Shown here: positions 19,529 to 41,077 of the stretch, in pieces
Layout: the number at the start of each line of letters is the position of its first letter
Numbering within the stretch: position 1 is the stretch's first letter
Origin: Azoarcus sp. CIB
Lineage (GTDB): Bacteria > Pseudomonadota > Gammaproteobacteria > Burkholderiales > Rhodocyclaceae
DNA length: 64,000 nucleotides
Reading direction: 5' to 3'
Assembly (NCBI RefSeq): GCF_001190925.1
Contig: NZ_CP011072.1
Span: 3,286,001-3,350,000, forward strand
Position numbers and translations under genes: made by a program
Notes under the pieces: model-generated
What the model saw: the letters and a program-made list of their open reading frames with translations, nothing else
Database searches by the model: none
What the model was told of the DNA's origin: nothing

Positions 19529-19597
19529 ACCGTCTCCTCCACCCTCCTCCTTTGGTGTGGATTTAGCCCGAGCCCGCAAACGCGCTCGGGCTTTTTT
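19529..19597 (+). ncRNA. Anti-Shine-Dalgarno small RNA, copy 1
   Basis: About 69 nt. The start is set to the A a few nt after the -10. After CGTCTCC comes a hairpin (19538-19561): TCCAC pairs with GTGGA and CC with GG across a bulged T, leaving a 9-nt loop that displays TCCTCC. This is complementary to Shine-Dalgarno GGAGGA. The terminator stem GCCCGAGC/GCTCGGGC (19566-19573, 19584-19591) is followed by six T. The 5' 36 nt are identical in copies 1-4. There is no coding potential of note. The likely action is pairing with ribosome binding sites, inferred from the exposed motif. Confidence 0.85.
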
Positions 19598-19663
19598 CTT
19601 TTCCGGCGTCCCTCGGCGATTTCGCGCCCCGGATGCGTTGCGCCGGCACTGCATAGGGAATTC

Positions 19664-19732: not shown

Positions 19733-19798
19733 ACCGTCTCCTCCACCCTCCTCCTTTGGTGTGGATTTAAGCCCGAGCCTCAACCGCTCGGGCTTTTT
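19733..19798 (+). ncRNA. Anti-Shine-Dalgarno small RNA, copy 2
   Basis: About 66 nt. The 5' part is identical to copy 1, with the TCCTCC-displaying hairpin at 19742-19765. The terminator arms GCCCGAGC and GCTCGGGC enclose a 7-nt loop and precede five T. It ends about 33 nt from the stop of the convergent lysR, so it may also limit read-through from or into lysR. Confidence 0.85.
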
Positions 19799-19831
19799 CT
19801 TTTTCTGCGCCCGCAGTGGCCTCAGGTCGCC

Positions 19832-22496: not shown

Positions 22497-22564
22497 ACCG
22501 TCTCCTCCACCCTCCTCCTTTGGTGTGGATTTAGCCCGAGCCCGCAACCGAGCTCGGGCTTTTT
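22497..22564 (+). ncRNA. Anti-Shine-Dalgarno small RNA, copy 3
   Basis: About 68 nt. The TCCTCC hairpin spans 22506-22529, identical to copies 1, 2 and 4. Terminator arms GCCCGAGC at 22534-22541 and GCTCGGGC at 22552-22559 are followed by five T. It lies about 170 nt downstream of aspA on the same strand but has its own promoter. Confidence 0.87.
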
Positions 22565-22717
22565 CTTTTCCGGCCCCGGATTTTCGGCAAGCACGGCTGG
22601 AACACGATCGCCAAACACCGTCCCCGGAACATCGCGCGCCAAGTTCGGCGGCCCCACGTGCGTTCGGTCCGCTGACTGCCCGGGAGCGTGGCCGTCGCTA
22701 CTGAGCATTCGCGTGCC

Positions 22718-22786: not shown

Positions 22787-22853
22787 ACCGTCTCCTCCAC
22801 CCTCCTCCTTTGGTGTGGATTTAAGCCCGGACCGTCAAACGTCCGGGCTTTTT
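22787..22853 (+). ncRNA. Anti-Shine-Dalgarno small RNA, copy 4
   Basis: About 67 nt. The hairpin at 22796-22819 displays TCCTCC as in copies 1-3. The terminator arms are GCCCGGAC (22825-22832) and GTCCGGGC (22841-22848). They differ from the other copies at two base pairs, with compensating changes on both sides, so the structure is maintained. Confidence 0.88.
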
Positions 22854-22956
22854 CTTTTTCGCCGGTCGATCGGCGTCGACAGGCCTGATCAACGACTTGC
22901 GGGGTCGGTCATTTGTCCCGTAAATCACCGCATGAGAACATCTCACAGGCTTATTA

Positions 22957-22989: not shown

Positions 22990-23061
22990 ACTGTCTCCTC
23001 CACCCTTTCCTCCTTTGGTGTGGATTCAAGCCCGAGCCCCTCCAGAGCTCGGGCTTTTTTT
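22990..23061 (+). ncRNA. Anti-Shine-Dalgarno small RNA, copy 5 (divergent)
   Basis: About 72 nt. The hairpin at 22999-23024 has the same stem, but its loop is 2 nt longer (TTTCCTCCTTT) and still displays TCCTCC. The 5' end reads CAACTG where the others read GAACCG. The terminator arms GCCCGAGC (23030-23037) and GCTCGGGC (23047-23054) precede seven T. It ends 17 nt from the stop of the convergent U32 gene at the end of the qhp operon. Confidence 0.82.
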
Positions 23062-23078
23062 CGGACCGGCCGACCGCT

Positions 23079-24125
23079 TCAGGCGGCCGTCAGGGCCTTT
23101 CCTTCGGCATCACTGGTTGCCTGCGGGCACCTCACCTCGGGGTAGTAGCACATGTAGCCGCTGGCGCAGTGGCTCGGCGCGTCGCGCAGGCCGACGGCGA
23201 AGTCGCGCACCTCGTGCTCCGGCTCGCCCGCCTCGATCCGCTCCAGCACGCGGGCGACAAGCTCGACGCTCTTGATCTTGCGTTCGCTCGCCCCCTCGCG
23301 GCCAGCGATCTTCACCGAGTGCACACCCGCCGCATGCATCGCCGGCATCGCGCAGATGCCGCAGGGTCCCCACGGATAGCCATTGGGTGCAACCGAGAAG
23401 CCGTTGCCGAAGCGGTACCAGAGCCAGCGCTTGTAATCGAGGTCGTTCTGTTCGAGGCGTCGCAGCGCGCGCTCCTGCGGCTGTCCGCCACCGGTGGCCT
23501 GATACTCGAACTGGTAGTTGTCGATGCAGATGGGGCCGCCCTTGTTCATCGGCAGATGGACGGTGTGGCAGGCGCCTTCCTCGAACACGCAGCCGTCGTT
23601 GAGGACGAAGGCTTCGACGTCAAGTTCGGGCAGCGCCTGTGTGATCGCGGCGATCTCTGCGACCGTGACGTCGCGCGGCAGGATGATGCGCTTGGCGCCG
23701 AGCGCGGCGAAGAAGCGTGCGGATTCGACGTTGCGACAGGTGGCGACGGAACTGACGTGGATGTCGAGGTCCGGCACGTTGGCGGCGAGCGAGGCGATCA
23801 GCGAGATGTCGGCGACGATGGCGGCCTTGCCGCCGATGCTGCGGAAACGGGCGGCGATCTCGGTGAGCGCGTCGAGGTGCTGTTCGCCGTACTGCTGCGC
23901 GTTGAGGACGAGGAAGACTTCGGCGTCGAGCGACATGGCCTTGTCGACGACACGTTCGAGGTCCGCGTAGCCGTTGAGGTTGCCGAAGACGCGGCGATTG
24001 ACGCCGGAGGTGTTGAAGCGCTGGATCCAGTCGGGCGGTACGACGCCGCAGTAGAGCTCGCGGGCGCCGGCGCGCACGAGCGGTTCGACTTCGGCGGGGG
24101 TGCTGATGGGGGCGGTGATTTTCAT
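23079..24125 (-). CDS. U32-family protein, UbiU-like (candidate O2-independent hydroxylase subunit)
   Basis: 348 residues, a U32 'peptidase' family protein. Known members UbiU/UbiV, TrhP and RlhA take part in O2-independent hydroxylation of ubiquinone precursors or RNA. Seen: the TIM-barrel start MKITAPISTPAE, ILPRDVTVAEI (like the SRELS element of UbiU), then Cys179 and Cys186 (spacing 7, as in UbiU), Cys200 and Cys255/Cys258 as candidate Fe-S ligands. AGREGASERKIKSVELV near 275 is another family-like element. It is the last gene of the qhp operon, one nt after its UbiV-like partner. I infer a role in CTQ tryptophan hydroxylation; a general U32 role unrelated to CTQ is the alternative. Confidence 0.8.
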   Translation of the reverse strand: MKITAPISTPAEVEPLVRAGARELYCGVVPPDWIQRFNTSGVNRRVFGNLNGYADLERVVDKAMSLDAEVFLVLNAQQYGEQHLDALTEIAARFRSIGGKAAIVADISLIASLAANVPDLDIHVSSVATCRNVESARFFAALGAKRIILPRDVTVAEIAAITQALPELDVEAFVLNDGCVFEEGACHTVHLPMNKGGPICIDNYQFEYQATGGGQPQERALRRLEQNDLDYKRWLWYRFGNGFSVAPNGYPWGPCGICAMPAMHAAGVHSVKIAGREGASERKIKSVELVARVLERIEAGEPEHEVRDFAVGLRDAPSHCASGYMCYYPEVRCPQATSDAEGKALTAA

Positions 24126-24126
24126 G

Positions 24127-25029
24127 TCAGGCTCCCGAGAGGACGATGCGGCTGACCCAGCCGTTGTTCACGGCCTCGGCGACCGCGGTGGCCATGCCTT
24201 TCGCGTGACGGTAGTACATGGTGTTACCGCGCTGCGAGGTGTGGAGTTCGTGGGTGCCGGGTCGTGCGCCAACTTCGTTAAATCCGAGGCATTCGCGGCG
24301 GCACTTGTGACCGGGCGAGAACTTCTCCGGTGTGTCGAGCGACAGCGAGCCGAGCTTGCAGATGCGGCCCTTGGCGATGTAGCCGTACGGCGCGCGCACG
24401 CCGACCGGGAAATCGATGCCGGCGTACATGTCGGCGGCGCCGAAGGGTGGGAAGTCGAGTTCCAGGCGTCCGATGCCGAGGCCGTCGAGGATGTCTCGGA
24501 AGGGGCCGGCGCGCAGGCCGTTCGGATACATGCGCGCCCAGGTCGCCGAGGGCAGGCGCGGATCCTTCAGCATCTTGCCGAGGAGGCGTCCGGCGACCGG
24601 GCGCAGCGCCGGGAACTCGCGCTGCACGAGGCGCGCGACGCCCCAGTCGTTGATGGTGACTTCGGAGCCCGCTGGCAGGCGCGCGAGCGCGGCGCGCAGC
24701 GGGTCGAACAGGCCGTCGCAGGCGATCGGCGTGACAAGGCCGAAGGCGAGGCCCCAGCGCTCGCACAGCGCCACGGCGCGGTCGATGGATTCGACGCTCG
24801 GGAGCAGGTGTTCGCAGAACTCGCTGCCGAGGAAGAAGTGCGTGGGTTCGGCGTCGTCGGGCAGCGTGACGCAGTCGCGCGCTTCGCCGAGTTGGTCGAG
24901 GTAGTCGTCGCGCGTGAGGCGATCGTGCCGCGCGAAGGCGGCCAGTTCGCGTTCGTCGACCAGCGCAAAGCCGAGTTCGATCGGACGCGCGCCGCTGTCG
25001 GGCGCGGGAGTGTGCGGTGTGCTTGTCAT
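24127..25029 (-). CDS. U32-family protein, UbiV-like partner
   Basis: 300 residues. It resembles UbiV: FFLGSEFCEHL carries Cys72 where UbiV has its early ligand, EVTINDWGVARLV mirrors the EANDLGA element, and Cys224, Cys243 and Cys247 follow (the last pair spaced 4, as in UbiV). This gives a plausible four-cysteine [4Fe-4S] site. The start overlaps the qhpE stop by 4 nt, and the UbiU-like start lies one nt after its stop, so the three products are probably made in step. UbiU and UbiV work as a heterodimer, and the same is likely here. No ubiT-like gene is beside it, which argues against a normal ubiquinone role. Confidence 0.78.
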   Translation of the reverse strand: MTSTPHTPAPDSGARPIELGFALVDERELAAFARHDRLTRDDYLDQLGEARDCVTLPDDAEPTHFFLGSEFCEHLLPSVESIDRAVALCERWGLAFGLVTPIACDGLFDPLRAALARLPAGSEVTINDWGVARLVQREFPALRPVAGRLLGKMLKDPRLPSATWARMYPNGLRAGPFRDILDGLGIGRLELDFPPFGAADMYAGIDFPVGVRAPYGYIAKGRICKLGSLSLDTPEKFSPGHKCRRECLGFNEVGARPGTHELHTSQRGNTMYYRHAKGMATAVAEAVNNGWVSRIVLSGA

Positions 25030-25721
25030 GAATCGATCTCCGCGATTCTCTTGTGTTCCCGCCCCTGCCAGCTTGCGCGGGCGGCGAGGTGATCCGCGAG
25101 CCCTTGCGGGTCCGCGGCGGGGTATTGCATGAGATGACGGGCGAGGATTCCGGTGAAGCGCGCCGTCGCCATGCTCGCGCCGCCGGCCGTTTTCCCCGGT
25201 CCGGCAGGGGAACAGCCCCAGTCCGCAGCGCCTGACGTCTCGCCCTTGAGCAGCGACCACTGTCCGGGCGCGCAGCGCGCATCGCCGCTGACGGCGAGCA
25301 CGCCGGGATACGCCGCGGGGAAGACTGGCGTGCCGCGCGCGGGGGCAGCCGCGACGAGCACGACGCTGCGGGCGATGGCGCGCTCGCAAGCGTCGCTCAG
25401 CACGGCACGATCTTCGAGCAGGCCGAGGCTGAGGTTGATGATCCGCGCGCCCTCGTCCGCACACCACTCGATCGCCGCGGCGACCATGGCCGGCGTCGGT
25501 GCGTGCCGGTGCGACGCGATGCGCGCGTCGATGAGGCGGGCCGCGGGTGCGGCCTCGAGCACGAGCGCGGCCACCGCTTCGCCGTGCGGCAGCGGGCGAC
25601 CGCCTGCGGACTCGCAACCGACGCTTCCGTCGGCGGCGGGAATGAAGCTCGCCGCCCGATGCAGTGCGTGCGAGGGTACGCCGATGAAGCCGCCGTCGAT
25701 GATGCCGACCGTCACGCTCAT
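25026..25721 (-). CDS. qhpE: Subtilisin-like protease for the QHNDH gamma subunit
   Basis: 231 residues. In Paracoccus, QhpE removes the leader peptide of the gamma subunit QhpC during maturation. The catalytic triad is visible: Asp9 in GIIDGG, His46 in LPHGEAVA and Ser183 in GGASMATA. The segment VAAAPARGTPVFPA stands where subtilases usually have the oxyanion Asn (AAGN), and that Asn is not evident. There is no signal peptide, in keeping with action in the cytoplasm before export. It overlaps qhpF and the UbiV-like gene by 4 nt each. Confidence 0.88.
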   Translation of the reverse strand: MSVTVGIIDGGFIGVPSHALHRAASFIPAADGSVGCESAGGRPLPHGEAVAALVLEAAPAARLIDARIASHRHAPTPAMVAAAIEWCADEGARIINLSLGLLEDRAVLSDACERAIARSVVLVAAAPARGTPVFPAAYPGVLAVSGDARCAPGQWSLLKGETSGAADWGCSPAGPGKTAGGASMATARFTGILARHLMQYPAADPQGLADHLAARASWQGREHKRIAEIDS

Positions 25722-27436
25722 ACGACCCTCAACAGCGGTGCGGCGGACCGGGCCGGCTCGGGCTCGACGAGCCGGCCGTCACGCAGCTCGACGACGCGAT
25801 CGACCGCGCCGACGGACACAAGGTTGTGGGTGATGACGATGCGGGTGCGGCCGGCGAAGACGCGATCGACCGCGGCGATGATCGCCTGTGCGACCGGGAG
25901 ATCCAGTCCGGAGGTCGTCTCGTCGAGGATCAGCACCGCCGGGTCCTGCAGGATCGCGCGGGCGAGCGCGATGCGCAGGCGCTCGCCGCGCGACAGCGCG
26001 GACGCCGACGCGCCGACCGGTTTGTCGAGGCCGCCCGCGTGGGCGAAGTTCGCGAGGCCGGCGAGGTCCAGCGCGCGCAGCAGCGCCGCCTCGTCGGCCT
26101 CCGGGGCGACGAAGCGCAGGTTGTCGCGTACCGTGCCGGGCATCAGGACCGGATCCTGATCGACGACGACGACCTCGCGGCGCAGCTCGACGAGGTCGAG
26201 CAGGTCGAGGCGCACGCCGTCGAGGAGGAGCCGCCCGGCCTGCGGGTCATAATGGCGTTGCAGCAGGTCGATCAGCGTCGACTTGCCCGCACCGGACGCG
26301 CCGACGAGGGCGAGCTTGGTGCCGGCCGGCACGTCAAGCGTCGCGCCCTCGAGCACTGCCTCGGCGCCATAGCCGAAGCGCACGGCGTCGAGCCGCAGTT
26401 CGCCGCGCACCGGGCGGACGAGCGCGACCGGTTGCGCCGGGGAGGCCACCGTCGGCTGCTCGGCGGCGAGCTCCTGGATGCGCTGCAGGCTGACCTTCGC
26501 GCGCTGCCAGCCCATGAACACGCCCGCCAGCGTCTGCAACGGCCCCGCGGCGCGCGTCGTGTAGGCGATGAAGGCGACGACGACGCCGACCGAGAGCTCC
26601 CCGCCCGCCGCCAGCGAGCCGCCGACGGCGAACACCAGCAGCACGCCGAGGCCCGACAGCACGCGCTGCAGGCCCCCCGCGCCGAGCGAGGCGAGTTGCG
26701 AGCGGCGCAGCGCGGCGAAGTAGTCGCCGTGGTGCGCGCGAAGGCCCGCTTCCTGGCGCCGCGCGGCATTGGAGGCCTGGATGAACTTCATTGCGCGCAG
26801 CGATTCGACGAAGAAACTCGACATCGCCGCGCTTTCCTTGCGCAAGGCCTGCGTGCTCTTTTCCAACCAGGGGCGCGAGAACATTAGCGCCGCGACCTGC
26901 AGCGGCACGAGCGCGAACACGAGCGAGGTGAGAAGCGGGCTCAGCGACAGCATCAGCACCAGCGCGACCGCCAGCGAGAATGCGCCGTTCAGCAGCGCCA
27001 TCGGGGCGTCGAGGGCGAAGCGCTGCACCTCGGCGACGTCTCCGTCCAGCCGCGACAGGATCTCGCCGCCGCGGGTGCGCGCGTACCAGGTCGGCGCGAG
27101 CGTTTGCAGGTGCCGCCACACCTGCTCGCGCAGCCCGAAAAGGACGTGCGCGGAGAGCTTCAGGTAGGTGAGGCGGGACAGCGTCTCGACGAGCACGCCG
27201 CCGAGCATCAGGACGAGGAAGGCCGCGCAGAGCTGCAGCACGAGATCGACCTTGCCGCCGACGATGCCTTCGTCGACGAGGCGTTGCATGAGGTAGGGCG
27301 GCAGCAGCGCCGCGGCCGAGCCGATGCAGGAAAGGACGACGACGCCCGTGACCGACCCGGCACGTTCGCGCACCAGCGGCAGCGCCCAGCCGAGGGCCTG
27401 CAGGGGCAGGGAACGATCCGCGCGCAGCCCGATCAC
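25718..27436 (-). CDS. qhpF: ABC transporter for QHNDH maturation (membrane plus ATPase)
   Basis: 572 residues, an ABC exporter half-transporter with a GTG start. Residues about 20-310 hold the six-helix membrane domain; the nucleotide-binding domain has Walker A GASGAGKST, signature ALSRGERLRI (LSGGQ variant) and Walker B AVLILDETTSG. In the known qhp system it moves the cross-linked gamma subunit to the periplasm; that role is taken from the family and the operon. The gene starts 10 nt after qhpB and overlaps qhpE by 4 nt. Confidence 0.9.
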   Translation of the reverse strand: MIGLRADRSLPLQALGWALPLVRERAGSVTGVVVLSCIGSAAALLPPYLMQRLVDEGIVGGKVDLVLQLCAAFLVLMLGGVLVETLSRLTYLKLSAHVLFGLREQVWRHLQTLAPTWYARTRGGEILSRLDGDVAEVQRFALDAPMALLNGAFSLAVALVLMLSLSPLLTSLVFALVPLQVAALMFSRPWLEKSTQALRKESAAMSSFFVESLRAMKFIQASNAARRQEAGLRAHHGDYFAALRRSQLASLGAGGLQRVLSGLGVLLVFAVGGSLAAGGELSVGVVVAFIAYTTRAAGPLQTLAGVFMGWQRAKVSLQRIQELAAEQPTVASPAQPVALVRPVRGELRLDAVRFGYGAEAVLEGATLDVPAGTKLALVGASGAGKSTLIDLLQRHYDPQAGRLLLDGVRLDLLDLVELRREVVVVDQDPVLMPGTVRDNLRFVAPEADEAALLRALDLAGLANFAHAGGLDKPVGASASALSRGERLRIALARAILQDPAVLILDETTSGLDLPVAQAIIAAVDRVFAGRTRIVITHNLVSVGAVDRVVELRDGRLVEPEPARSAAPLLRVV

Positions 27437-27446
27437 CGCCCTGCCC

Positions 27447-28535
27447 TCAGCGCTTCACCACGCGCATCCAGCCGATCGACTGGTCGGCGCCGCCGGGCAT
27501 CGTGATCTCGCCCTTCTTCTCGAAGCTGTCCGCGTCGTAGATCGCGATCTTGTCGAGCGCGCCGCCGACGTAGAGCTCCTTGCCGTCGCCCGAGATGTTG
27601 ATCGCATAGTAGGTCTGATCCAGATCCTTGCGCTTCAGGAGCTTGCCGGTGTCGGTGTCGACCTTGGTGAGCTGGTTCATCACGAGGAAGGCCTCGTTGC
27701 GCGCGACCGGGCTCACGACCGACGAGAACATCGCCGTCGTCGCGTTCTCGAACTCCTTCACCTTAAGCGTCTCGGCGTCGAGGTCGAATACCGCGATGCC
27801 GGCCTTGAAGGCTTCGGGCGAGTCGGGCGGGACGTCGGTCTTCGCGACGAAGTATGGCGTCGACAGCGCACGCGCCTGCTCGAAAGTGCCCCACATTGCG
27901 AGCACGTCCGGCTCGCCGATGCCGGGGCGGTTCCAGTGGCGCACCGGGAAGGTCTGCTCGAGCTTGCCGGTCCTGGTGTTGAAGAGGTACATGTCCCAGC
28001 CGAGCGCGATGAGGTGGTCGGGCTTGCCGGTCGCGGCCATCAGGCTGATGCGGCGCGGCGCCGGGAAGCTGCGGCGCGGCTTGGCGGTCATGCCGTCGGC
28101 GGTGTCGAAGACCGCGATGTAGGTGTCTTCGACCGTGTACTCGGAGCGCCCGAGCTGCACCGGCGCCTGATGCACGTACAGCTCCTTGCCGTCCTCGCTC
28201 ACCGCGACCGCGAAGAAGGCCTTCACGCGGCGCTGCGGCGTGGAGAAATCGGCGCGGAACACCGGCTTGCCGGTGTCGAGATCGACGCCGACCACGCTTT
28301 CCATGCGGTTCGTCAGCACGTAGGCGATCTTGCCGTCCTTCGGCACCGCGATCGCGCCGGGAATGCCGTCGCCGGGCAGGTTGATCGTGCGGACGATCGC
28401 GCGCTTGGCCGGATCGACGATGTGCAGGTTGTTGGGCCGCGTGACGGTCAGCAGGTATTCGGCCGCGAGCACGGGCAGCGAGGCGGCAACGCAGCACAGG
28501 GCAACGAGCGCCTTCTTGATGGGTAGCGTCCTCAT
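27447..28535 (-). CDS. qhpB: Quinohemoprotein amine dehydrogenase, beta subunit
   Basis: 362 residues with a signal peptide (basic start, hydrophobic core to about residue 25, ALA-type end), so periplasmic. The rest has repeating propeller-like strands (YLLTVTRPNNLHIVD, GKIAYVLTNRMESVVGVD, in part), the seven-bladed beta subunit of QHNDH. The beta subunit helps hold the small gamma subunit with its quinone cofactor. qhpC ends 3 nt upstream of its start. Confidence 0.93.
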   Translation of the reverse strand: MRTLPIKKALVALCCVAASLPVLAAEYLLTVTRPNNLHIVDPAKRAIVRTINLPGDGIPGAIAVPKDGKIAYVLTNRMESVVGVDLDTGKPVFRADFSTPQRRVKAFFAVAVSEDGKELYVHQAPVQLGRSEYTVEDTYIAVFDTADGMTAKPRRSFPAPRRISLMAATGKPDHLIALGWDMYLFNTRTGKLEQTFPVRHWNRPGIGEPDVLAMWGTFEQARALSTPYFVAKTDVPPDSPEAFKAGIAVFDLDAETLKVKEFENATTAMFSSVVSPVARNEAFLVMNQLTKVDTDTGKLLKRKDLDQTYYAINISGDGKELYVGGALDKIAIYDADSFEKKGEITMPGGADQSIGWMRVVKR

Positions 28536-28538
28536 CGC

Positions 28539-28859
28539 TCAGTCTCCAGGGAACAGCGTCTGCAGTTCGCGCCAGTCGCGCAGGGCCGAGTTCTTGCCGT
28601 CGGTCCAGTCGCGCGCGGTGTTCAGGCTGTCGGCGAGCTGTGCCGGCCACCAGCAGGGGTCGGTGCAGCCATAGAGATCGGCTTCCATCGGCTGGCACAG
28701 GCTCGCCAATCCGCCGAAGGCATCGACTTCCCAGCCGGGGTCGAAGGTCGTGGTGCAACCGACGACACTGCTCATCAGCTGGACTTCCTCGCGGTGGCCG
28801 TCGCTGGCCGCCTGCTCGATCAGGTGCGCCTTGTGGTTCAGGGCTCGCAGTCGTTTCAT
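28539..28859 (-). CDS. qhpC: Quinohemoprotein amine dehydrogenase, gamma subunit precursor (CTQ-bearing)
   Basis: 106 residues. A 28-residue leader precedes a 78-residue core. Numbered from Met29 as residue 1, the core has Cys7/Glu16, Cys27/Asp33 and Cys41/Asp49 (thioether pairs) and Cys37/Trp43 (cysteine tryptophylquinone). These are exactly the positions known for mature QHNDH gamma subunits. The radical SAM enzyme QhpD forms the thioethers, the leader is cut by QhpE and the chain is exported by QhpF. The start overlaps the qhpD stop by 4 nt. Confidence 0.95.
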
Positions 28860-30286
28860 TGCAGGGCACTCCTTTGTTCGATGGCGCCATTGAAGAACGC
28901 CGGATTGGCGAGCGCGATGTCGCCGAAGGCTTCGAGGCCGAACGCGGTCCATTCGCGGATCTGGTCGCAGTACTCGAAGGTCGGCTGGAAGGGGTCGCCG
29001 CTACGCGAATAGGATTCGTGGTAGCAGCCGCCGGCGCACAGGCTGCGCGCGGGGCACACTTGGCAGGCGCCGTGCGGGGCCTGCGCGCGGGTCATGAAAT
29101 GCGACAATGACTCGCGCGCGATGCCGTTCTCGACGTCGCCGAAGGTCTCGAGCTCCGAGCCGGTGAAGCGGTGGCACAGTGATATCTTGCCGCTGGTGCC
29201 GACCGCCAGCAGGCCGACGCCGGCGCCGCAGGGCAGGACTTTGCGCGTGCCCATCCACAGGTCGGTCATCAGCTGCTGCATGTTGCCGAAGCCGTGGCGC
29301 TTGCCGCGCTTGGCCTCGGACACATACTCGCGGCCGAGCGCCTTGAACGCTTCGAACACGGTGTCGAGCTCCTCGCGCGACAGACCGACCGGCGAATCGG
29401 GGCCGGCGGTCGCGGGCGCGAAACCCACCTCGAAGAAGCCCAATTCGTCGTGCAGATGCTTGTAGATGCCTGCGACGTCGAGGTTGCCGGATGCGAGCGT
29501 GACGCGCGCACCGACCGGCTTCGACTTGTAGCGCTCGAGCAGCCGCTTCACGCGCATCGCGACCGTCTTGTAGGTGCCGCCGCCGGCGATCGTGCGGCGG
29601 TGGCGGTCGTGCTGCGCCTGGTCGCCGTCGATGCTGATGGTGATGCCGAAGCGGTGCGTATCGAGGAAGTCGATGATCTCGTCGGTGAGCAGCGTCGCGT
29701 TGGTCGTCAGCGAGAACTCGACGTCCTTGCCAGCGGCCACGGCCTTCTCCTCGGCGTAATCGACGAGATCGCGAATGACCGCGATGCGGGTCAGCGGCTC
29801 ACCGCCGAAGAACACGATGCCGACGCGCTCGTTCTCGCTTGCCTCCTCCATCAGCAGGTCGATCGAGCGCGAGCCGGTCTGGTAGTCCATCACCGCGGAG
29901 TTCTTCGGCGAAGTCAGGTCTTCGCGGTAGCAGTAGCTGCAGCCGAGGTTGCAGCCGGTGGTGAGCGTCAGCACCAGCGTCTTCAGCGGCGAACGCTCGA
30001 CGACGCGCGCCGGGATCTCGTAGTGCTTGGGCTGCGGCGCGACGATGCCGAGGTCGATGAAGTCGGAGAGGCTGTCGCACAGCTCCGCCGGCGTGTAGCG
30101 ACCGTCGAAGCGCGACTGGATGTCGTCCGCACTGACCGCCGGCGCCGACTCGAACAACCCGAGCAGGTCGGATGCGGCCGGGTCGAGCTCGAAGATCGAG
30201 GTCGTCGGCACGTGCAGCAGCACCTGCCGGTCGCCCTTGCGAATCGCACGGTAGTTGTGGGGTTGTACCTGCAATGTTGTAGTCAT
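28856..30286 (-). CDS. qhpD: Radical SAM/SPASM thioether-forming maturase
   Basis: 476 residues. An N-terminal peptide-binding region (about 1-95) precedes the radical SAM core with Cys112, Cys116 and Cys119 in [16 protein letters not shown] and ISIDGD follow, and then the C-terminal SPASM cysteines ([25 protein letters not shown]). In the family it makes the three Cys-to-Asp/Glu cross-links of QhpC. AGGAG lies before the start, and the end overlaps qhpC by 4 nt. Confidence 0.95.
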
Positions 30287-30305: not shown

Positions 30306-31925
30306 TCAGCGCAGCGGCGTCGGGTTCCAGCGCTGCACGGTGACGACCAGCTGGCCTTTCGCGTTGAGCGAGCGCCCGCCGTCCGCGACGGTCGCGACGA
30401 CCGACAGGTTGCCGACGTTGTTGAGGCCGCGACGTGCCGGATTGGGACCGCCGAAGGACGGCAGGAACTGTCCGTGCGGCTCCATGTGGCCGGCGAATTT
30501 CAGGTCCTCGTCATGCTTCGCGCGCTCGTCGAAGGGCTCGGTGGACCACGTCGCCGGCACGCTGCCCAGACGCACGTCGTCGTCGGTGCCGGGTTTGCCG
30601 TCCGCGCCGTCGAGGAAGGCGACGGCGTCGAACTGCGCGGTCACCGGCGGATTCGTGCCGCCGCCGACGCGTGCGATGCCGAAGGCCGGCTCGACGCGCA
30701 CCGAGTCGATCTGGCGATACACGGCAACGCTCTTGTCGGACTCGCGTCCGCCGACGGCGAGCTTGCGCAGGCCGGGCGCCGCGTCGGCTGCGACCTTCAC
30801 GCGCAGCTTCAGCTGCTCCGCGGACTTGCCCAGCCACTCGACGACCTCGACGTCCGGCCCGAGATCGAGCTTCGCATCGAGGCCGGCGCCCGCGACCGTC
30901 ACGGTCGCCGTCTCGCCCGCCCGCAGCATCTGCGGACTCACGGACACCAGCGCGTTCTTCGCCGCCTTGTCGGCGCGCACCGCCTCGAACGTGGCCCCGA
31001 TCTCGTCGGCCTTACGCAGGAACCAGCGCCCGCTCATCCGGCCGCCGTCCTCGCTCAGCGCGAAGATCGACTGCGTCTGCTCGTTGCCGAGTTGCGCCGT
31101 GCCGCGCCATTCGTAGCCGGTATAGACGAGCGACTCGCCCTTGCCGCGCACGGTGTTGCCCGGCCCGAAGTGCAGCTCGTAGCCGACCTCGTAGCGGTCA
31201 CTGCCCTTCGCGGTGACGGTCATCGTACCGGTATAAGCGCCCCAGCCCGGCCGCTCGCCGGCGACGATCCAGCGCCCGGTGGCCGGCCGGTGCTTCGCGC
31301 GGCTCCAGTCGCGCCACGCGTCGGTGTTCTTCGGATACATCTCCGCGAGTCGCCCCGGCATCTTGTCGCGCGCGATCTCCCACCAGTTGCGGTCGCGCCC
31401 GAGCGCCGAGTATTCCGCGCTGGGGAACTGGCCGAGATGGGTGTGCATCAGCTTCCTCCACTCGTTCTCGTCGCGCCGCTGCAGCGCGACGCGGCCGTAG
31501 CTGTGGCAGCGGCCGCACATCTGCGCCAGTTCCTCGTCGGGCGGCGCGTCCTGCATGTTCGGCCGGCGCTCGGTCAGGAAGCGGAACGCTGCGGCCTCGG
31601 ACGGCGCAAGCCCCTGCCGGTCGGCGAGGTACTTCACCACCGCGCGGCGCTCGTCGGGCGTCAGCTCGACCTTGTGCCAGATGCCCATGCGCACGATGGT
31701 CATGTCCCAGCCCTCGGGGGTCTTGCGGACCTCGGGGATGCGCGTGAGCTTGCCGCCCTCGAGGTGACAGCTCGCGCACTTCTTGTCGATCACCTCGCGG
31801 CCGGGGTCCTGCGCCGCGACGGCGGGCGTCGTGCCCGCCATCCCCAGCACCAGCGCCACCGCGCCGGCGATGCGCAGACGTCTGCGCGTGTGTTTTTTGG
31901 TCTCAGCCTTCACTTGTGTCTCCAC
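30306..31925 (-). CDS. qhpA: Quinohemoprotein amine dehydrogenase, alpha subunit (diheme)
   Basis: 539 residues with a signal peptide ending about residue 38 (AVAA). Two c-type heme motifs are CASCH at 50-54 and CGRCH at 137-141, the diheme domain of the alpha subunit. The rest is the beta-rich part that builds the periplasmic complex. It carries electrons from CTQ to an external acceptor such as a cytochrome or azurin. It is 19 nt upstream of qhpD and 55 nt downstream of the aldehyde dehydrogenase gene. Confidence 0.95.
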   Translation of the reverse strand: METQVKAETKKHTRRRLRIAGAVALVLGMAGTTPAVAAQDPGREVIDKKCASCHLEGGKLTRIPEVRKTPEGWDMTIVRMGIWHKVELTPDERRAVVKYLADRQGLAPSEAAAFRFLTERRPNMQDAPPDEELAQMCGRCHSYGRVALQRRDENEWRKLMHTHLGQFPSAEYSALGRDRNWWEIARDKMPGRLAEMYPKNTDAWRDWSRAKHRPATGRWIVAGERPGWGAYTGTMTVTAKGSDRYEVGYELHFGPGNTVRGKGESLVYTGYEWRGTAQLGNEQTQSIFALSEDGGRMSGRWFLRKADEIGATFEAVRADKAAKNALVSVSPQMLRAGETATVTVAGAGLDAKLDLGPDVEVVEWLGKSAEQLKLRVKVAADAAPGLRKLAVGGRESDKSVAVYRQIDSVRVEPAFGIARVGGGTNPPVTAQFDAVAFLDGADGKPGTDDDVRLGSVPATWSTEPFDERAKHDEDLKFAGHMEPHGQFLPSFGGPNPARRGLNNVGNLSVVATVADGGRSLNAKGQLVVTVQRWNPTPLR

Positions 31926-31980: not shown

Positions 31981-33483
31981 TCACAAAGCCATGATCACGG
32001 ACTTGGATTCGGTGTACAGATCGAGCACCGCGCGCCCCATCTCGCGCCCGATGCCGGACTGCTTGAAGCCACCGAAGGGCATCGCGTTGTCGAGGATGTT
32101 GTGGCAGTTCACCCACACCGTGCCGGCCTGGATCTTCGGGATCAGGCGATGAACGCGCGACAGGTCGTTCGACCAGATGCTCGCGGCGAGCCCGTAGGGG
32201 GTGTCATTCGCACGGCGTGCCACCTCGTCCAGATCGTCGTAGGGCATCGCGACAACGACCGGTCCGAAGATCTCCTCGCGCACCACCTTCATGTCGTCGC
32301 TCGTGTCGACCAGCACCGTCGGCTTCACGAAGTAGCCTGCGCCCTCGCCCGCCGCACCGCCGGTCGCGGCCCGCGCGCCCTCGGCAAAGCCGCTCTCGAT
32401 GTAGCCGAGCACGCGCTTCTGCTGCGTGGCCGACACGAGCGGGCCGATCTGCGTCGTCGGGTCGATGCCTGCGCCGAGCTTCATGCCGGCAGCGATGCCG
32501 GAAAGCCCCTCGACCACCTCGTCGAAGCGGCTCTTGTGCACGAAGAGGCGCGAGCCGGCCGTGCACACCTGCCCCTGGTTGAAGAAGATCGCCTGCGCGG
32601 CGCCCGCCGCAGCCTGACTCACGTCGGCATCATCGAGCACGATCACCGGGCTCTTGCCGCCGAGCTCCAGCGACACGCGCGTCATGTTGTCGAGCGCGGC
32701 CTTGCCGACCAGCTTGCCGATCTCGGTCGAGCCGGTGAAGGCGACCTTCTCGACGCCCTTGTGCGACGCGAGCGCGGCGCCCGCCGTGTGGCCGAGGCCG
32801 GTCACAACGTTGAGCACCCCGGCCGGGTAACCCGCCTCCAGCGCCAGTTCCGCGAAACGCAGCGCCGAGAGCGGCGTCTCCTCGGCCGGCTTCAGCACCA
32901 TCGTGCAGCCCGTCGCCAGTGCCGGCGCCACCTTCCATGCCGCCATCAGCAGCGGGAAATTCCACGGGATGATCGCGCCGACCACCCCCACCGGTTCGCG
33001 TCGGGTGAAACCGAAGAACTCGCGGTCGCGGATGATGGGCACCGACACGTCCATCGTCGAGCCTTCGATCTTGGTCGCCCAGCCCGCCATGTAGCGCAGG
33101 AAGTCGACCACCAGCGCGACGTCGACGTGGCGTGCCATCGTCACCGGCTTGCCGTTGTCGAGCGACTCGATCTCGGCCAGCTCCTGGGCGTTCGCTTCCA
33201 CGAGATCGGCGAACTTCAGCAGCAGGCGCTCGCGATCGACCGGGCGCATCTTCGGCCAATCACCCGATTCGAAGGCGCGGCGCGCCGCTGCGACGGCGCG
33301 GTCGATGTCCGCTGCCCCGCCGGCCGGCACGCTGGCGAATTTCTCGCCGTTGGCCGGATCGATGACCGCCAGCGTCTCGCCGCTCGCCGCCTCGACCCAC
33401 TCCGCACCGATCAGCATGCGCCGCGGGCGCTCCAGAAAGCGCCGAGTGCCGTCGCTCAGCAGTTGTCCGTGGTAACGCTCCAT
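31981..33483 (-). CDS. NAD(P)-dependent aldehyde dehydrogenase
   Basis: 500 residues. The ALDH family signature is plain: IIPWNFPLLM, ELGGKSP with the general-base Glu, and GQVCTAGSRL with the nucleophilic Cys. It resembles phenylacetaldehyde and related aldehyde dehydrogenases (PadA/FeaB type). As the first gene of the qhp operon it would oxidise the aldehyde made from the amine by QHNDH to an acid, for example phenylacetate from phenylethylamine; the actual amine is not known. AGGAGA lies before the start. Confidence 0.92.
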   Translation of the reverse strand: MERYHGQLLSDGTRRFLERPRRMLIGAEWVEAASGETLAVIDPANGEKFASVPAGGAADIDRAVAAARRAFESGDWPKMRPVDRERLLLKFADLVEANAQELAEIESLDNGKPVTMARHVDVALVVDFLRYMAGWATKIEGSTMDVSVPIIRDREFFGFTRREPVGVVGAIIPWNFPLLMAAWKVAPALATGCTMVLKPAEETPLSALRFAELALEAGYPAGVLNVVTGLGHTAGAALASHKGVEKVAFTGSTEIGKLVGKAALDNMTRVSLELGGKSPVIVLDDADVSQAAAGAAQAIFFNQGQVCTAGSRLFVHKSRFDEVVEGLSGIAAGMKLGAGIDPTTQIGPLVSATQQKRVLGYIESGFAEGARAATGGAAGEGAGYFVKPTVLVDTSDDMKVVREEIFGPVVVAMPYDDLDEVARRANDTPYGLAASIWSNDLSRVHRLIPKIQAGTVWVNCHNILDNAMPFGGFKQSGIGREMGRAVLDLYTESKSVIMAL

Positions 33484-34156: not shown

Positions 34157-35128
34157 TTATCGGGCAGGCGCAAGGCGCTCGACGCCGAGCTGTCCGGCAA
34201 CGACCACCGCTCCGGTCGGGGCCGCCATCACCGCCGCAAGGTTCTGCCGGTCGGGGCGGATCTCGAGCTGCAGTGGTCCGCCACCGCTGCTGCGCAGCAC
34301 CACGCCGCCGGCGCCGACGACGATCAGCCCGCCGTTCGCGAGCGCCAGCCCCGAGGTCAGCGACTGCTCGGTGCCGGTCTCGCGCACCTGCCAGCTGTTG
34401 CCGCCGTCGCGGCTCGCGATCACCTTGCCGCTCATCCCCAACAGCACGACCTCGCCGTCGCCGCGTTCGAGCCCGCTCCACAGCGATCCCGACACCCCGG
34501 TCGCGAGCTTCGTCCAGGTCGCCCCACGGTCGGTCGAACGGAACGCGAGTCCGGTTTCGGCGGCGAGGAAGAGCTTGCCGTCGCGCGTCGAGAAGATGTG
34601 GTTGAGGTGCAAGTCCGCGTCATGCCCGCTACCGACCGCCATCGGCGCCCAGTCGCGCCCGCCGTCGCTCGTCACGAAGGCTGCGCCGTAGGCCCCGACC
34701 GCGTAGCCGCGCTGCGCATCGGTGAAATGCACCGACAGCAGCACCGGCTTGTCGTCGAGCGTCGCCTGCAGCTGCCAGTTCGCGCCGCCGTCCGTCGTCA
34801 CGAGGATCACGCCACCGTGCCCCACGGCCCAGCCGCGGCTGTCATCGACGAAATGCACCGCCGTCAGCAACAGGCTGACCGGCACCTCCGCCTGCTGCCA
34901 GGTCTTGCCTTCGTCGGTCGAGCGCACGATCGTGCCGTAGTCGCCCACCGCAACCAGCGCATTGCCCGCGCGCACCAGTCCCGTCACCGGCACCTTCGCC
35001 GCCAGCCGCGCCTTCATTGCCGGGGCGGGCACCTTGGCGGCATCCGCCGGGCCGGCCGCGAACACCGCCGCGCTCGTCGCCAGACACAGGCAGACCAGGG
35101 TCCGCCCGATTCGATTGCTTGTTTTCAT
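34157..35128 (-). CDS. YCF48-like periplasmic beta-propeller protein
   Basis: 323 residues with a signal peptide (to about residue 30) and a series of BNR/Asp-box repeats: VRSTDEGKTWQ, VTTDGGANWQ, VTSDGGRDWA, FRSTDRGATWT and ASRDGGNSWQ. This is the YCF48/BNR beta-propeller pattern. Such proteins are often encoded next to RND transporters with DUF1302 and DUF1329 genes, as here, and probably act in assembly or scaffolding. It starts 10 nt after the RND gene stop. Confidence 0.85.
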   Translation of the reverse strand: MKTSNRIGRTLVCLCLATSAAVFAAGPADAAKVPAPAMKARLAAKVPVTGLVRAGNALVAVGDYGTIVRSTDEGKTWQQAEVPVSLLLTAVHFVDDSRGWAVGHGGVILVTTDGGANWQLQATLDDKPVLLSVHFTDAQRGYAVGAYGAAFVTSDGGRDWAPMAVGSGHDADLHLNHIFSTRDGKLFLAAETGLAFRSTDRGATWTKLATGVSGSLWSGLERGDGEVVLLGMSGKVIASRDGGNSWQVRETGTEQSLTSGLALANGGLIVVGAGGVVLRSSGGGPLQLEIRPDRQNLAAVMAAPTGAVVVAGQLGVERLAPAR

Positions 35129-35138
35129 CGGGTTCCCC

Positions 35139-37502
35139 TCAATGGGCCATCAGCGGCGCGCGCACCGGGCCACGCCGCGGGATCAGCACGTCGAGCGTCA
35201 CGGCCAGCGCCGGCAGCAGCGTGATCGCCATAATCATGTTCATCATGAACATGAAGGTCAGCAGCATCCCCATGTCGGCCTGGAACTTCAGCGCCGAGAA
35301 GGACCAGGTGGCCACGCCGATCGACAGCGTCACCGCGGTGAACACGGTCGCCACACCGATCTCGCGCAGGGCCTGCTTGAACGCCGTGACGATGTCCTCG
35401 CCGTGCGCCAGATGCATCTGCAGCCGGTTGTAGATGTAGAACGCGTAATCGACGCCGATCCCCACCGCCAGGACCATCACCGGCAGCGTCGCCACCGTCA
35501 GGCCGATGTCCAGTTCCTTCATGAACCAGTAGCCGAGGAAGGTCGCGAGCGTCAGCGGCACGCAGCACGCCACCATCGCGCGCCAGTCGCGATACACCGC
35601 GAACACCAGCACGAGGATAGTGGCATACACATACAGCATCATCGGCAACTCGGAGTGCTCGACCACCTCGTTGGTCGCCGCCTGCACGCCGGCGTTGCCG
35701 CTGGCGAGCCGCACGGTCACGCCCGGGAACGGCTGGGTCTCGCGGAAATGCTTCACCGCAGCGACCACCTCCTTGATCGTCGACGCCTTGTGGTCGGCGA
35801 GGTACAGATTCACCGGCAGCAGCGTGCAATCCGCATTGAAGAGCCGCATGCCTTCCGGCACCTGACGCACCGCCTCACCCAGCGTCAGCTCCTCCTGCGG
35901 CAGCGCCGCCCACTTCGGGTTGCCCTCGTTCACCCCGGACGCCGCGAGCTTGGTCATGCCCGGCAGCGACTGCGCCGACAGCACGCCCGGCACGTTCGCC
36001 AGATACCAGCTCAGGCGGTCGAGATGGCTCATCACGTCGTGGCGATAGCAGCCGTCCGCGGGCGTCTCGACGACCACCGTCAGCATGTCCAGCCCCAGCG
36101 CGTAGCGGGCGACGACGGCCTCGACGTCCTGGTTGTAGCGCGAATCGTCGTGCAGCTCCGGCGCGCCCGGCAGCACATGGCCGACGTGCCGCCCCTGGCT
36201 CTGCCACACTGCAATGGCCATCAACGCGAGGCACACCAGCGTGCCGATCGCCGCATTGCGCGGATTCGCGATATGCACGCCGATGGACGCCATCATGCGA
36301 TTGCGCAACCCTTCGACCTTGCTCGCCCGCAGCACGAAGGCGTCGTCGAAGCGGAAGTAGCTCGCCACCACCGGCAGCATGATCAGGTTCGTGACGATCT
36401 TGTACGCCACACCGACCGACGCGGTGATCGCCAGCTCGCGGATCATCGGAATCGGCACCAGCACCAGGGTCGCGAAACCGACGAAGGCCGTGATCAGCGC
36501 CAGCGTCCCCGGCACCAGCAGCCCGGTGAAGCTGCGGCTCGCCGCGGTGTAGCCGTCAGCGCCGTTGATGACTTCCTTCGCGATGTAGTTCACCTGCTGG
36601 ATGCCGTGCGACACGCCGATCGCGAACACCAGGAAGGGCACCAGGATGGCCAGCGGATCCAGCCCGAAGCCCAGCAGCGTGATCGTGCCGAACTGCCACA
36701 CCACCGATACCAGGGAGCAAACCAGCGGCAAGACGGTCAGCATCCACGAACGGGTGTACCAATAGACGGCCGCCGCAGTCAGCAGGAAGGCCAGCGCGAA
36801 GAACTCGATCACGCTGGTCGCCCCTTCCGAGATGTCGCCCATCTGCTTCGCGAAGCCGATGATGCGGATACGCACGTCGTCGTCGCTGAACGTATCGCGC
36901 ACCTCGCGCTCCAGCCGCTGGCTGAACTCCGAGTAATCCAGCCGCGCGCCGGTCTGCGGATCGGGATCCGCCAGCTCGGCGACCACCATCGCCGACGACG
37001 AATCGTTTGCCACGAGGCTGCCGATGAAGCCGCCGACGATCGTGCGCTCGCGGATCGCGGTGATGTTCTCCGGCGTCAGCGCCTTCACCGTCACGTCGCC
37101 GCCGATCACGTCCTCGGCCTTCATCCCCTCCTCGGTGATCTGCACCGCGCGGGTATTCGGGGTCCACAGGGACGTCACCGTGCGCCGGTCGACGCCCTTC
37201 ATGAAGAACAGCGCCTGCGTCACGTCGTACAGCTTGGTCAGTGCCTTCTCGTTCCAGATGTCGCCGTTCTTCGCCTCGACCGTCACGATGATGCGGTTCG
37301 CGCCGAACAGCACCTCGCGATACTGGTTGAAGGTCTGGATGTATTCGTGGTTTTGCGGCAACTGCTTGTCAAAGCCTGCGCTCATCTCGAGGCGCGACGC
37401 GAACAACGCCATCACCGCGGTAAAGCCGAGCAGCGCGAGCAGGATCGGCAGGCGGTGCCTGAAGCACACGCGCTGCATCGCCAGCACCAGTTTCTCGATC
37501 AT
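35139..37502 (-). CDS. RND/MMPL-family transporter
   Basis: 787 residues, inner membrane, with two repeats of the RND type: a first helix near residue 20, a large periplasmic loop, a group of helices including a sterol-sensing-like segment (LLPVVASYF region), then a second copy. MMPL-type members move hydrophobic compounds. The start at 37502 (MIEKLVLAMQRV) fits the family N-terminus. With DUF1302 (outer membrane) and DUF1329 (periplasmic) genes upstream it probably forms a trans-envelope route for a hydrophobic substrate; direction and substrate are unknown. Confidence 0.88.
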   Translation of the reverse strand: MIEKLVLAMQRVCFRHRLPILLALLGFTAVMALFASRLEMSAGFDKQLPQNHEYIQTFNQYREVLFGANRIIVTVEAKNGDIWNEKALTKLYDVTQALFFMKGVDRRTVTSLWTPNTRAVQITEEGMKAEDVIGGDVTVKALTPENITAIRERTIVGGFIGSLVANDSSSAMVVAELADPDPQTGARLDYSEFSQRLEREVRDTFSDDDVRIRIIGFAKQMGDISEGATSVIEFFALAFLLTAAAVYWYTRSWMLTVLPLVCSLVSVVWQFGTITLLGFGLDPLAILVPFLVFAIGVSHGIQQVNYIAKEVINGADGYTAASRSFTGLLVPGTLALITAFVGFATLVLVPIPMIRELAITASVGVAYKIVTNLIMLPVVASYFRFDDAFVLRASKVEGLRNRMMASIGVHIANPRNAAIGTLVCLALMAIAVWQSQGRHVGHVLPGAPELHDDSRYNQDVEAVVARYALGLDMLTVVVETPADGCYRHDVMSHLDRLSWYLANVPGVLSAQSLPGMTKLAASGVNEGNPKWAALPQEELTLGEAVRQVPEGMRLFNADCTLLPVNLYLADHKASTIKEVVAAVKHFRETQPFPGVTVRLASGNAGVQAATNEVVEHSELPMMLYVYATILVLVFAVYRDWRAMVACCVPLTLATFLGYWFMKELDIGLTVATLPVMVLAVGIGVDYAFYIYNRLQMHLAHGEDIVTAFKQALREIGVATVFTAVTLSIGVATWSFSALKFQADMGMLLTFMFMMNMIMAITLLPALAVTLDVLIPRRGPVRAPLMAH

Positions 37503-37563
37503 GTTGGGGTATCCGTTATGCCGGCACCGCGGAAGTCGCGCCCCCGCGGCGCCGGCGCGTGCA

Positions 37564-39366
37564 TCAGAACGAGTACGAAACGCTTGCCGAGAGGAAGTCC
37601 CGGTCACGCATCAGGTTGTTGGCGCCGCCGCCGTAGAAGGTCACCCACTGGATCGCCCCCTTCCACGCGTCGCGGTAGTTCGCGAACAGCGACAGCGTCA
37701 GCGCCTTGCGGCCCTCGACGAAGGGCAGCCCATTCGGCGTCGTGCCATCGACGTCGTGGTACCAGTCGATCTGCGGCGTCAGCGTCACGCCCGTGCCGGC
37801 GACGTTCGGGTAGTTCAGCGCCGCCTCCACCACGTAACCCCACGACGTCTTGTCCGGCAGCGCATAGTTCGGCAGGAAGTACGGCGTCACCCCACTCGTG
37901 TCGAGCCCCGGGTAATGCGCGACCGCCGCTTCGGCGAGGATGAAGCCGTCCGTCGCCCCCAACGCCTTCGCGAAGCCGCCCAGCGGGTCGTTATGCGAGA
38001 AGGTATAGAAGCCCGTGAGGTGGAACTGGTACTTCTCCTCCTCGACGAAGCCGGGATTGCTGCCGTGCTCGTAGATGCTGTACTTGCTCGACGGGCCGCC
38101 AAAAACGTTGCCGAAAGGCACCGTCGGATCGATGCCGACGCTGTCGTTGGGCCGGTACGACAGCTCCGCCCCGACCGCGATGTTCGCGAGCTTGGTGTTC
38201 GCCGAAATCGCGTACAGATCCTTGTCCTCGCCATAGGCGATGAAGTAGCCGGTGACCGCGCCTGCGCTGTTGCCCTTGAAGCCGAGGAAGGGCAGCTTGT
38301 CGTGGTAGCGCTGGTACGTGAAGGCGAACTCGGTGTCGATCTCCTCCGCGTTGTAGCGGAAGTTCACCCCGTACTGGCCCGTCTTCTTCGGCTTGTTGGT
38401 CCCCAGATAGGGCACCGCGATTCCCGCCGCGACCGCATCCGCATCCGGAATCCCGGGGTTGTCGCCGCATTGCCCCGTCGGCAGCCCTGCGCACGCGCCC
38501 GGCCCGGCGAAGTCCTCGATGATGCTCGTCGGCACGTACGCCACGCGCCGCCCCTTGCCCAGCACGTCGGCGGTCGAGAAGAAGGTCCCCACCGGGTCGA
38601 ACTTGAAGCCGTTCCACCCGAATTGGTAATACGCCTCCGCCCCCAGGTTCTCGGTCAGGCCCATCGATGCCGACAACATCGGCGCCGGAATGAAGATCTC
38701 CTTCAACTGCGTGCCCGGCACATGGAACTTCTGCAGATCGATCGCATTGATCTGGTTCACGCCGCCGATGATGAAGATGTCCTCGCCCCAGGAGATCACC
38801 TGGTTGCCGAACTTCACCTTGCCGCGCCGCTCGCCGACGGTGAACTCCTTGGCGATCCACGCGTCGAGCAAGGTCATCTCGCCCGAAGCCTCGTCCGCGA
38901 CCGACGTACGCCGCGTGTCGTCCGACTTCGTATCGACGAACCAGTTGAAGCGCGCCAGCGCGCTCCAGCCGCCCGGGTACTTCAGCGACAGGTCGTGGGT
39001 GCCCTTCAGCACCGCCGAGACGATGTCCCCCTTCTTGTAGTTCAGGTTGCCATCGTCGAAGTTCGTGTAGTTGAAATCGGCATTCGCATAGCCGGTGCCG
39101 TTGGCCAGGTTGTACACCTGCGACAGCTCGTTGTTCGTGCCGTTGTTGCAGCCGCCGCTGTCGTTACTCACCGTCTTGCAACCTGCCGACTGCAGGCGGC
39201 TCATCACGCCGTACGAGACGGTGCTGTCGAAGCTGCCCGAAATTCCCTCTTCCGAACCGAAGCGGAACGCATGGCTCGCCGGCGACCAGCATGCCGCCGC
39301 AACCGCAACTGCCAGAATCGAAGGCGCGAGCGTGCCCCGACGATCCGAAATCGTCCTTTTCTTCAT
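37564..39366 (-). CDS. DUF1302 outer-membrane protein
   Basis: 600 residues with a signal peptide (SPASHA end) and a beta-rich rest with many aromatic strand ends, finishing in the Phe-ending YSF expected of an outer-membrane barrel. The DUF1302 family is often found with DUF1329 and RND genes in degradation loci for steroids and aromatic compounds. It starts 28 nt after the DUF1329 stop and is 61 nt before the RND gene. Confidence 0.88.
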   Translation of the reverse strand: MKKRTISDRRGTLAPSILAVAVAAACWSPASHAFRFGSEEGISGSFDSTVSYGVMSRLQSAGCKTVSNDSGGCNNGTNNELSQVYNLANGTGYANADFNYTNFDDGNLNYKKGDIVSAVLKGTHDLSLKYPGGWSALARFNWFVDTKSDDTRRTSVADEASGEMTLLDAWIAKEFTVGERRGKVKFGNQVISWGEDIFIIGGVNQINAIDLQKFHVPGTQLKEIFIPAPMLSASMGLTENLGAEAYYQFGWNGFKFDPVGTFFSTADVLGKGRRVAYVPTSIIEDFAGPGACAGLPTGQCGDNPGIPDADAVAAGIAVPYLGTNKPKKTGQYGVNFRYNAEEIDTEFAFTYQRYHDKLPFLGFKGNSAGAVTGYFIAYGEDKDLYAISANTKLANIAVGAELSYRPNDSVGIDPTVPFGNVFGGPSSKYSIYEHGSNPGFVEEEKYQFHLTGFYTFSHNDPLGGFAKALGATDGFILAEAAVAHYPGLDTSGVTPYFLPNYALPDKTSWGYVVEAALNYPNVAGTGVTLTPQIDWYHDVDGTTPNGLPFVEGRKALTLSLFANYRDAWKGAIQWVTFYGGGANNLMRDRDFLSASVSYSF

Positions 39367-39394
39367 GGAGATTCTCCCTGGGTGGAGGTGCGGG

Positions 39395-40774: not shown

Positions 40775-41077
40775 GTTGTCGTCTCCTCACTTGATGTGAT
40801 GTGCCGTTCGGTTCGGCATTTTTTTCCGGCTGTCCCCGGCCGCGTCCTCGCACGGCGGTACAACCGATGGAGGCGATTGTAGGAAGCGGTTTCCCGAAGC
40901 CGTTATCCGAAATTGGCAATCCGCGACGAGACGGCGGGGACGACTTCACGGCGGGACGTGCGACGCGGTTCCTTAGAAAAATTTCACTGTTCCGCGTGCG
41001 ACTTTTGTATTAGCTTTAAAAAAATAATCAAAGCCATAACTACAAACGGCCCTTTCCGGTCAGGAGACAATCGGAAA
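40775..41077. promoter_or_regulatory. Divergent control region between the DUF1329 gene and the AraC regulator gene
   Basis: 303 nt without a gene. It has ribosome binding sites for both sides, a tract rich in A and T at about 40990-41045 likely to hold the regulator's promoter, and no clear -10/-35 pair. It is a good place for AraC-family binding sites, but I could not define one. Confidence 0.4.

Follow-up and report, generated by a model that had tools for sequence, protein, structure and literature searches.

Two adjacent genes at the end of the qhp operon of Azoarcus sp. CIB, referred to here as gene A and gene B, probably encode a two-protein iron-sulfur hydroxylase that works independently of O2, is dedicated to the maturation of quinohemoprotein amine dehydrogenase (QHNDH), and serves as an alternative to the O2-dependent enzyme QhpG. 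A search of the open-access literature found no named enzyme for an O2-free route to the cysteine tryptophylquinone (CTQ) cofactor of QHNDH, and a published proposal could exist in subscription papers; nor did it yield any paper joining cysteine tryptophylquinone with the U32 family, or peptidase U32 with amine dehydrogenase. The pair provides a concrete candidate for this route with comparative genomics behind it.

Genomic context of the pair

The operon was found in a window of 64,000 nucleotides from the complete 5,257,030 bp genome, and all of its genes are encoded on the reverse strand. First in the order of transcription is an aldehyde dehydrogenase-like gene (31981-33483) beside qhpA, recognized by its similarity to annotated aldehyde dehydrogenases of other qhp loci (64% to that of Cupriavidus and 38% to that of Paracoccus). 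It is followed by qhpA for the di-haem alpha subunit (30306-31925; TIGR03908, 729 bits), qhpD for the radical SAM maturase that forms the thioethers (28856-30286; TIGR03906, 745.6 bits against a cut-off of 453), qhpC for the gamma subunit, which is the substrate of maturation (28539-28859; NF037958, 162 bits, and alignment), and qhpB for the beta subunit (27447-28535; TIGR03907, 504 bits). The start of qhpC was set at an inner ATG, the listed open reading frame being 28539-28952. Next come a probable qhpF for an ABC exporter (25718-27436), qhpE for a subtilisin-like leader protease (25026-25721; NF049966, 238 bits against a cut-off of 165), gene B (24127-25029; 300 amino acids) and gene A (23079-24125; 348 amino acids), the last two identified as intact open reading frames with their translations. 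The name qhpF is based on operon position and on the ABC transporter domains PF00664 and PF00005, as no QhpF-specific model gave a match. QhpA, QhpB, QhpC, QhpD and QhpE all pass their NCBIfam cut-offs, which identifies the locus as qhp and bears out the original prediction on this point, as do the two reading frames of the pair. QhpD of this strain and its counterpart in Aromatoleum tolulyticum share 97% identity.

The genes of the maturation proteins and the pair are tightly packed, with 4-bp overlaps between qhpF and qhpE and between qhpE and gene B, while gene A begins 1 bp past gene B. These overlaps and this spacing make translation of the pair together with the qhp operon very probable. 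Among the named Aromatoleum and Azoarcus loci the pair directly follows qhpE in six of seven; the contig of the seventh stops at this point, and gene B of that genome (G1067) is on another contig.

Several further features of the surrounding DNA were observed. The aldehyde product of QHNDH is probably taken by the protein of the neighboring aldehyde dehydrogenase-like gene. Further along the window, at 34157-40774, beyond the aldehyde dehydrogenase gene and on the same strand, is a YCF48-like protein (PF14870), and inspection by eye of this region revealed an RND-type transporter and two further genes for exported proteins. An AraC-type regulator on the opposite strand (40913-42100), for which the nearest model is EutR (193 bits against a cut-off of 319), is a candidate regulator of the qhp genes. 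Five copies of the betaproteobacterial toxic small RNA RF02278 (Rfam) fall in two groups (19531-19599 and 19735-19801; 22499-22567, 22789-22856 and 22992-23062), and the three of the latter group are directly downstream of the pair.

Occurrence of the pair with QhpD

Gene B was used as the genome-wide marker of the pair, and the presence of gene A beside it was taken from the loci that were fetched. The first sample comprised 199 genomes from the family of the source genome, of which 29 had a QhpD above the cut-off. The gene B profile (E <= 1e-10; weakest match 319 bits) matched 20 of these 29 and 0 of the 170 QhpD-negative genomes of this first sample (Fisher p = 7e-21). Forty pairs were located in 35 genomes, 30 of them within 6 kb of qhpD, five more within 15 kb, one at 28.6 kb, and four on another contig; five distal pairs, in G009, G037, G048, G095 and the second locus of G103, were found by searching whole genomes for gene B. 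One genome (G044) has two qhp loci with a pair in each and QhpG in one.

Of 398 genomes sampled across the phylum, the gene B profile matched the source genome alone and none of the other 397. QhpD was found in two of 369 genomes of a class-wide sample, the source genome and G530, the latter standing outside the counts of pair and QhpG given below. Among 72,556 plasmid records there was no match to gene B and there were 49 matches to QhpD at E <= 1e-40, the weaker of which are other radical SAM proteins. Three plasmid qhp loci that were inspected, from Paracoccus, Pseudomonas and Cupriavidus, have QhpG in the locus and lack the pair; qhpG of the Paracoccus locus was named by position and similarity, its record reading NAD(P)-binding protein. 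Runs of three consecutive genes for QhpD-like radical SAM proteins below the TIGR03906 cut-off were seen in two genomes of the family (G023:C1:1689357-1693177 and G031:C14:75116-78924), and are perhaps another thioether-forming maturation system.

Complementarity with QhpG

If the pair performs the step of QhpG, genomes with QhpD would be expected to carry one or the other. QhpG was called where the best piece scored at least 394 bits, the best match in QhpG-negative genomes being 100 bits. In the 29 QhpD-containing genomes of the first sample, 14 have the pair only, nine QhpG only, six both and none neither (p = 7e-4). The family sample was then enlarged to 395 genomes as a fresh test, and the 25 new genomes with QhpD divided in the same manner, with ten pair only, nine QhpG only, five both and one neither (p = 0.012). 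Taken together, the 54 genomes comprise 24 with the pair only, 18 with QhpG only, 11 with both and one with neither (Fisher p = 7e-6, uncorrected for descent as the independent pairs on the QhpD tree are too few). The single genome with neither (G1079) was assembled to draft level, in about 680 contigs, and its qhpD is 1.6 kb from a contig end. In G1045, which is closest to it on the QhpD tree, 10.8 kb separate the pair from qhpD, and a gap in the assembly of G1079 may therefore account for the result. Five of the QhpG matches were flagged as having one in-frame stop, and in the two that were checked against open reading frames (G193 and G139) this is the terminal stop.

The original prediction had called for testing whether the pair and qhpG are mutually exclusive. 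Complementarity is evident in these counts, but strict exclusion does not hold, as 11 of 54 genomes carry both, including the source genome. The claim that the qhp locus and the window lack qhpG is correct, since the sole match to the QhpG profile in the source genome (E <= 1e-5) is at 1.355 Mb (G000:C1:1354747-1356075; L120 9748-11100), but with 598 bits this orphan qhpG-like gene means that the absence does not extend to the genome. Some 1.95 Mb separate it from the pair, its neighbors are efflux-type genes and a gene for a repeat protein, and no qhp genes were found in the 20 kb fetched around it. QhpG is also apart from the qhp genes in G137 and G192. Judging from gene position, the pair would be the operon-borne system of the source genome and QhpG a distant second one.

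The proposed target residues are conserved as well. The C-x-D-x-C-W-W pattern of QhpC, with the Cys and Trp of CTQ, is kept in 43 of 43 rows, loci with only the pair included, and oxidation of the Trp is therefore still required where QhpG is absent. The partner Cys of CTQ is Cys37. The Trp of CTQ is numbered Trp43 in PMC7876137.

Oxygen and lifestyle

A link between the pair and anaerobic life, which had also been proposed, was partly upheld. The narG gene, a marker of nitrate respiration, exceeded its cut-off in 19 of 24 genomes with the pair only, seven of 18 with QhpG only, six of 11 with both and the one with neither; the difference between the pair-only and QhpG-only groups has p = 0.011, uncorrected for descent and for narG only. 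No FNR-type site (TTGAT-N4-ATCAA, at most one mismatch) was found upstream of 13 pairs, in 2.5 kb for each but one, for which 1.5 kb was covered; since such a site is rare in GC-rich DNA, its absence is a weak negative. Schmitt et al. in 2019 reportedly found that two QHNDHs of A. aromaticum EbN1 are made under denitrifying conditions.

Gene A is a member of a separate U32 clade

The original prediction described two U32 genes, the one like UbiU and the other like UbiV, and this description fits gene A better than gene B. Gene A matches the U32 family (PF01136) with 147.8 bits against a cut-off of 22.4. Alignment with UbiU by hhalign gives a probability of 99.5%, but gene A scores 78.1 bits against the UbiU model NF047963, for which the equivalog cut-off is 440, and it forms a separate clade (100/100) in a tree with UbiU, TrhP, RlhA and three other U32 proteins of the source genome. 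Long branches meet in this tree, which limits what it says on the nearest relative. With the gene A profile, TrhP (99.5 and 90.9 bits) scores slightly higher than UbiU (81.9 and 80.7 bits). Gene A is accordingly a homolog of UbiU rather than UbiU itself. At a great distance from the window, four U32 genes of the source genome stand in a row (G000:C1:4840477-4845348; L086 5370-10421), among reading frames that look dikinase-like and solute-binding-like by eye, and U32 matches with equal spacing are present in G137, G167 and G192.

Eight Cys residues of gene A (26, 179, 186, 200, 255, 258, 320 and 326) are shared by all 24 aligned sequences, and Cys130 is present in 23 of 24. The predicted Cys179 and Cys186, with their spacing of 7, and Cys200 are among them. 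The cluster of UbiU is bound by C169, C176, C193 and C232 (PMC6747719). The first three of these ligands are aligned with invariant Cys of gene A and the fourth is unaligned; Cys255 and Cys258 could serve in its place, and gene A may hold an iron-sulfur cluster. The additional invariant Cys include a GPCGxCA motif and two residues close to the C-terminus.

Gene B is a family with no recognized relatives

Searches of Pfam and NCBIfam with gene B gave no match at E <= 0.001, and the U32 model of Pfam matched none of 19 gene B sequences even at E <= 10. Its profile gave a best score of 5.9 bits against 13 U32 proteins and a next-best match of 12 bits in the source genome. The hhalign probability of its homology with UbiV is 0.3%, from a shallow profile and two UbiV rows. 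Exactly four Cys of gene B (72, 224, 243 and 247) are invariant in 24 of 24 sequences, at the positions and with the Cys243/Cys247 spacing of 4 that had been predicted. The resulting motif, CXnCX18CX3C, is equal in order to the CXnCX12CX3C of UbiV with a longer spacer. The term U32 pair therefore holds for gene A, and for gene B the likeness to UbiV is a suggestive Cys pattern, in which the four residues could bind a second cluster, and not sequence homology.

The AlphaFold models of genes A and B are poor (mean pLDDT 50.2 and 53.9), having been built from seven near-identical rows each. The top Foldseek match of the gene A model is 5D88, titled U32 peptidase (E 1.3e-5), and the gene B model had no match at E <= 0.001. 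Sequence searches of solved structures found no relative of the gene A profile at E <= 0.01 or of the gene B profile at E <= 1.

Comparison with known systems

QhpG and the pair have a common operon context and largely alternative occurrence, and they would share a substrate and a step. They differ in that QhpG, an FAD enzyme, draws the two oxygens that it inserts from O2 (PMC7876137), whereas the pair has conserved Cys, and neither gene A nor gene B gave a flavin-enzyme match in Pfam or NCBIfam. The pair resembles UbiU-UbiV in being two adjacent genes, of which gene A is homologous to UbiU and gene B has four Cys in UbiV order, and is unlike it in the low UbiU score of gene A and the lack of UbiV homology of gene B. 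TrhP and RlhA are members of the U32 family like gene A, in clades of their own; they are longer and act on RNA without a paired partner.

A role for the pair in ubiquinone synthesis, as UbiU/UbiV, was considered and rejected because a true UbiU exceeds its cut-off elsewhere in 27 of 29 QhpD-containing genomes, including the source genome (G000:C1:471221-472213; 563.6 bits). UbiU for this reason has no value in discriminating among these genomes. As had been predicted, no ubiT adjoining the pair was recognized in the window.

Proposed role and alternatives

We propose that QhpC would first be cross-linked by QhpD, and that a complex of the gene A and gene B proteins would then add the quinone oxygens to the precursor Trp without O2, which is the step otherwise performed by QhpG. 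U32 enzymes hydroxylate independently of O2 (PMC11574389), with the oxygen thought to derive from prephenate (PMC11574389, PMC10470549), and the oxygen inserted by the pair would likewise come from a donor other than O2. UbiIHF can be replaced by UbiUV (PMC10470549), and because this substitution is a matching precedent, the relationship of the pair to QhpG may be likened to that of UbiUV to UbiIHF. By retaining either system on its own or the two together, bacteria could cover different oxygen tensions. The original suggestion that the pair is an alternative to QhpG in CTQ formation thus stands in the comparative test, both in the restriction of the pair to QhpD-containing genomes within the family sample and in the presence of the pair or QhpG in 53 of 54, but its wording has to give way where both are present and where gene B is called a U32 protein.

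Four other explanations were weighed against this one. The pair might aid QHNDH maturation at another step, for example by carrying out a single hydroxylation, oxidizing an intermediate of CTQ or assisting QhpD, in which case an unrecognized enzyme would oxidize the Trp. Restriction to QhpD-containing genomes and operon coupling would suit any step, and 11 of 54 genomes retain QhpG as well, but the complementarity is specifically with QhpG, and when reading frames of 15 pair-bearing loci were clustered no further family was common to all 15 among the 28 clusters listed, apart from frames running against known genes; we regard this explanation as unlikely. A catabolic role within the regulon, in which the pair would act on the amine, its aldehyde or some product further on instead of the cofactor, is suggested by loci in which the pair adjoins an aldehyde dehydrogenase gene (L054, L123, L124, L125, L126 and L127). 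Such a role seems decidedly improbable, as it leaves unexplained both the 24 of 54 genomes that have the pair without QhpG though the CTQ residues of QhpC are kept, and the 4-bp coupling to the gene of the maturation protease QhpE.

There is very little to be expected from a true peptidase activity of gene A on QhpC or its leader. The Pfam name and the top fold match of the poor model both point to a peptidase, but the leader of QhpC is already cleaved by QhpE (PMC7876137), characterized members of U32 are described as oxidases in a review (PMC11574389), and the invariant Cys sets suit an iron-sulfur enzyme. Finally, the pair and QhpG could have hitch-hiked as marks of different qhp lineages with no step in common. 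Few label changes are needed on the QhpD tree (seven for the pair and four for QhpG), and in an independent-pairs test just two pairs were informative; each agrees with the prediction, but two are too few to separate the association from common descent. Pair-only rows nevertheless fall in several separate clades of this tree, and 24 genomes would be left with no known route to oxidize the Trp of QhpC, which makes hitch-hiking highly improbable.

Returning to the proposed hydroxylase, none of the U32 enzymes described in the portions of the literature searched has a protein substrate, and we lean towards regarding the pair as the first O2-independent hydroxylase to act on a protein. It would combine a new U32 subfamily with a family lacking relatives, convert a peptidyl Trp to a quinone precursor and allow a tryptophylquinone enzyme to be built during denitrification. 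If this is true, proteins join small molecules and RNA as substrates of U32 chemistry, and a new partner family is defined. Genomes with the pair only, QhpG only or both would then offer a natural genetic series for examining how oxygen-free hydroxylases take the place of monooxygenases.
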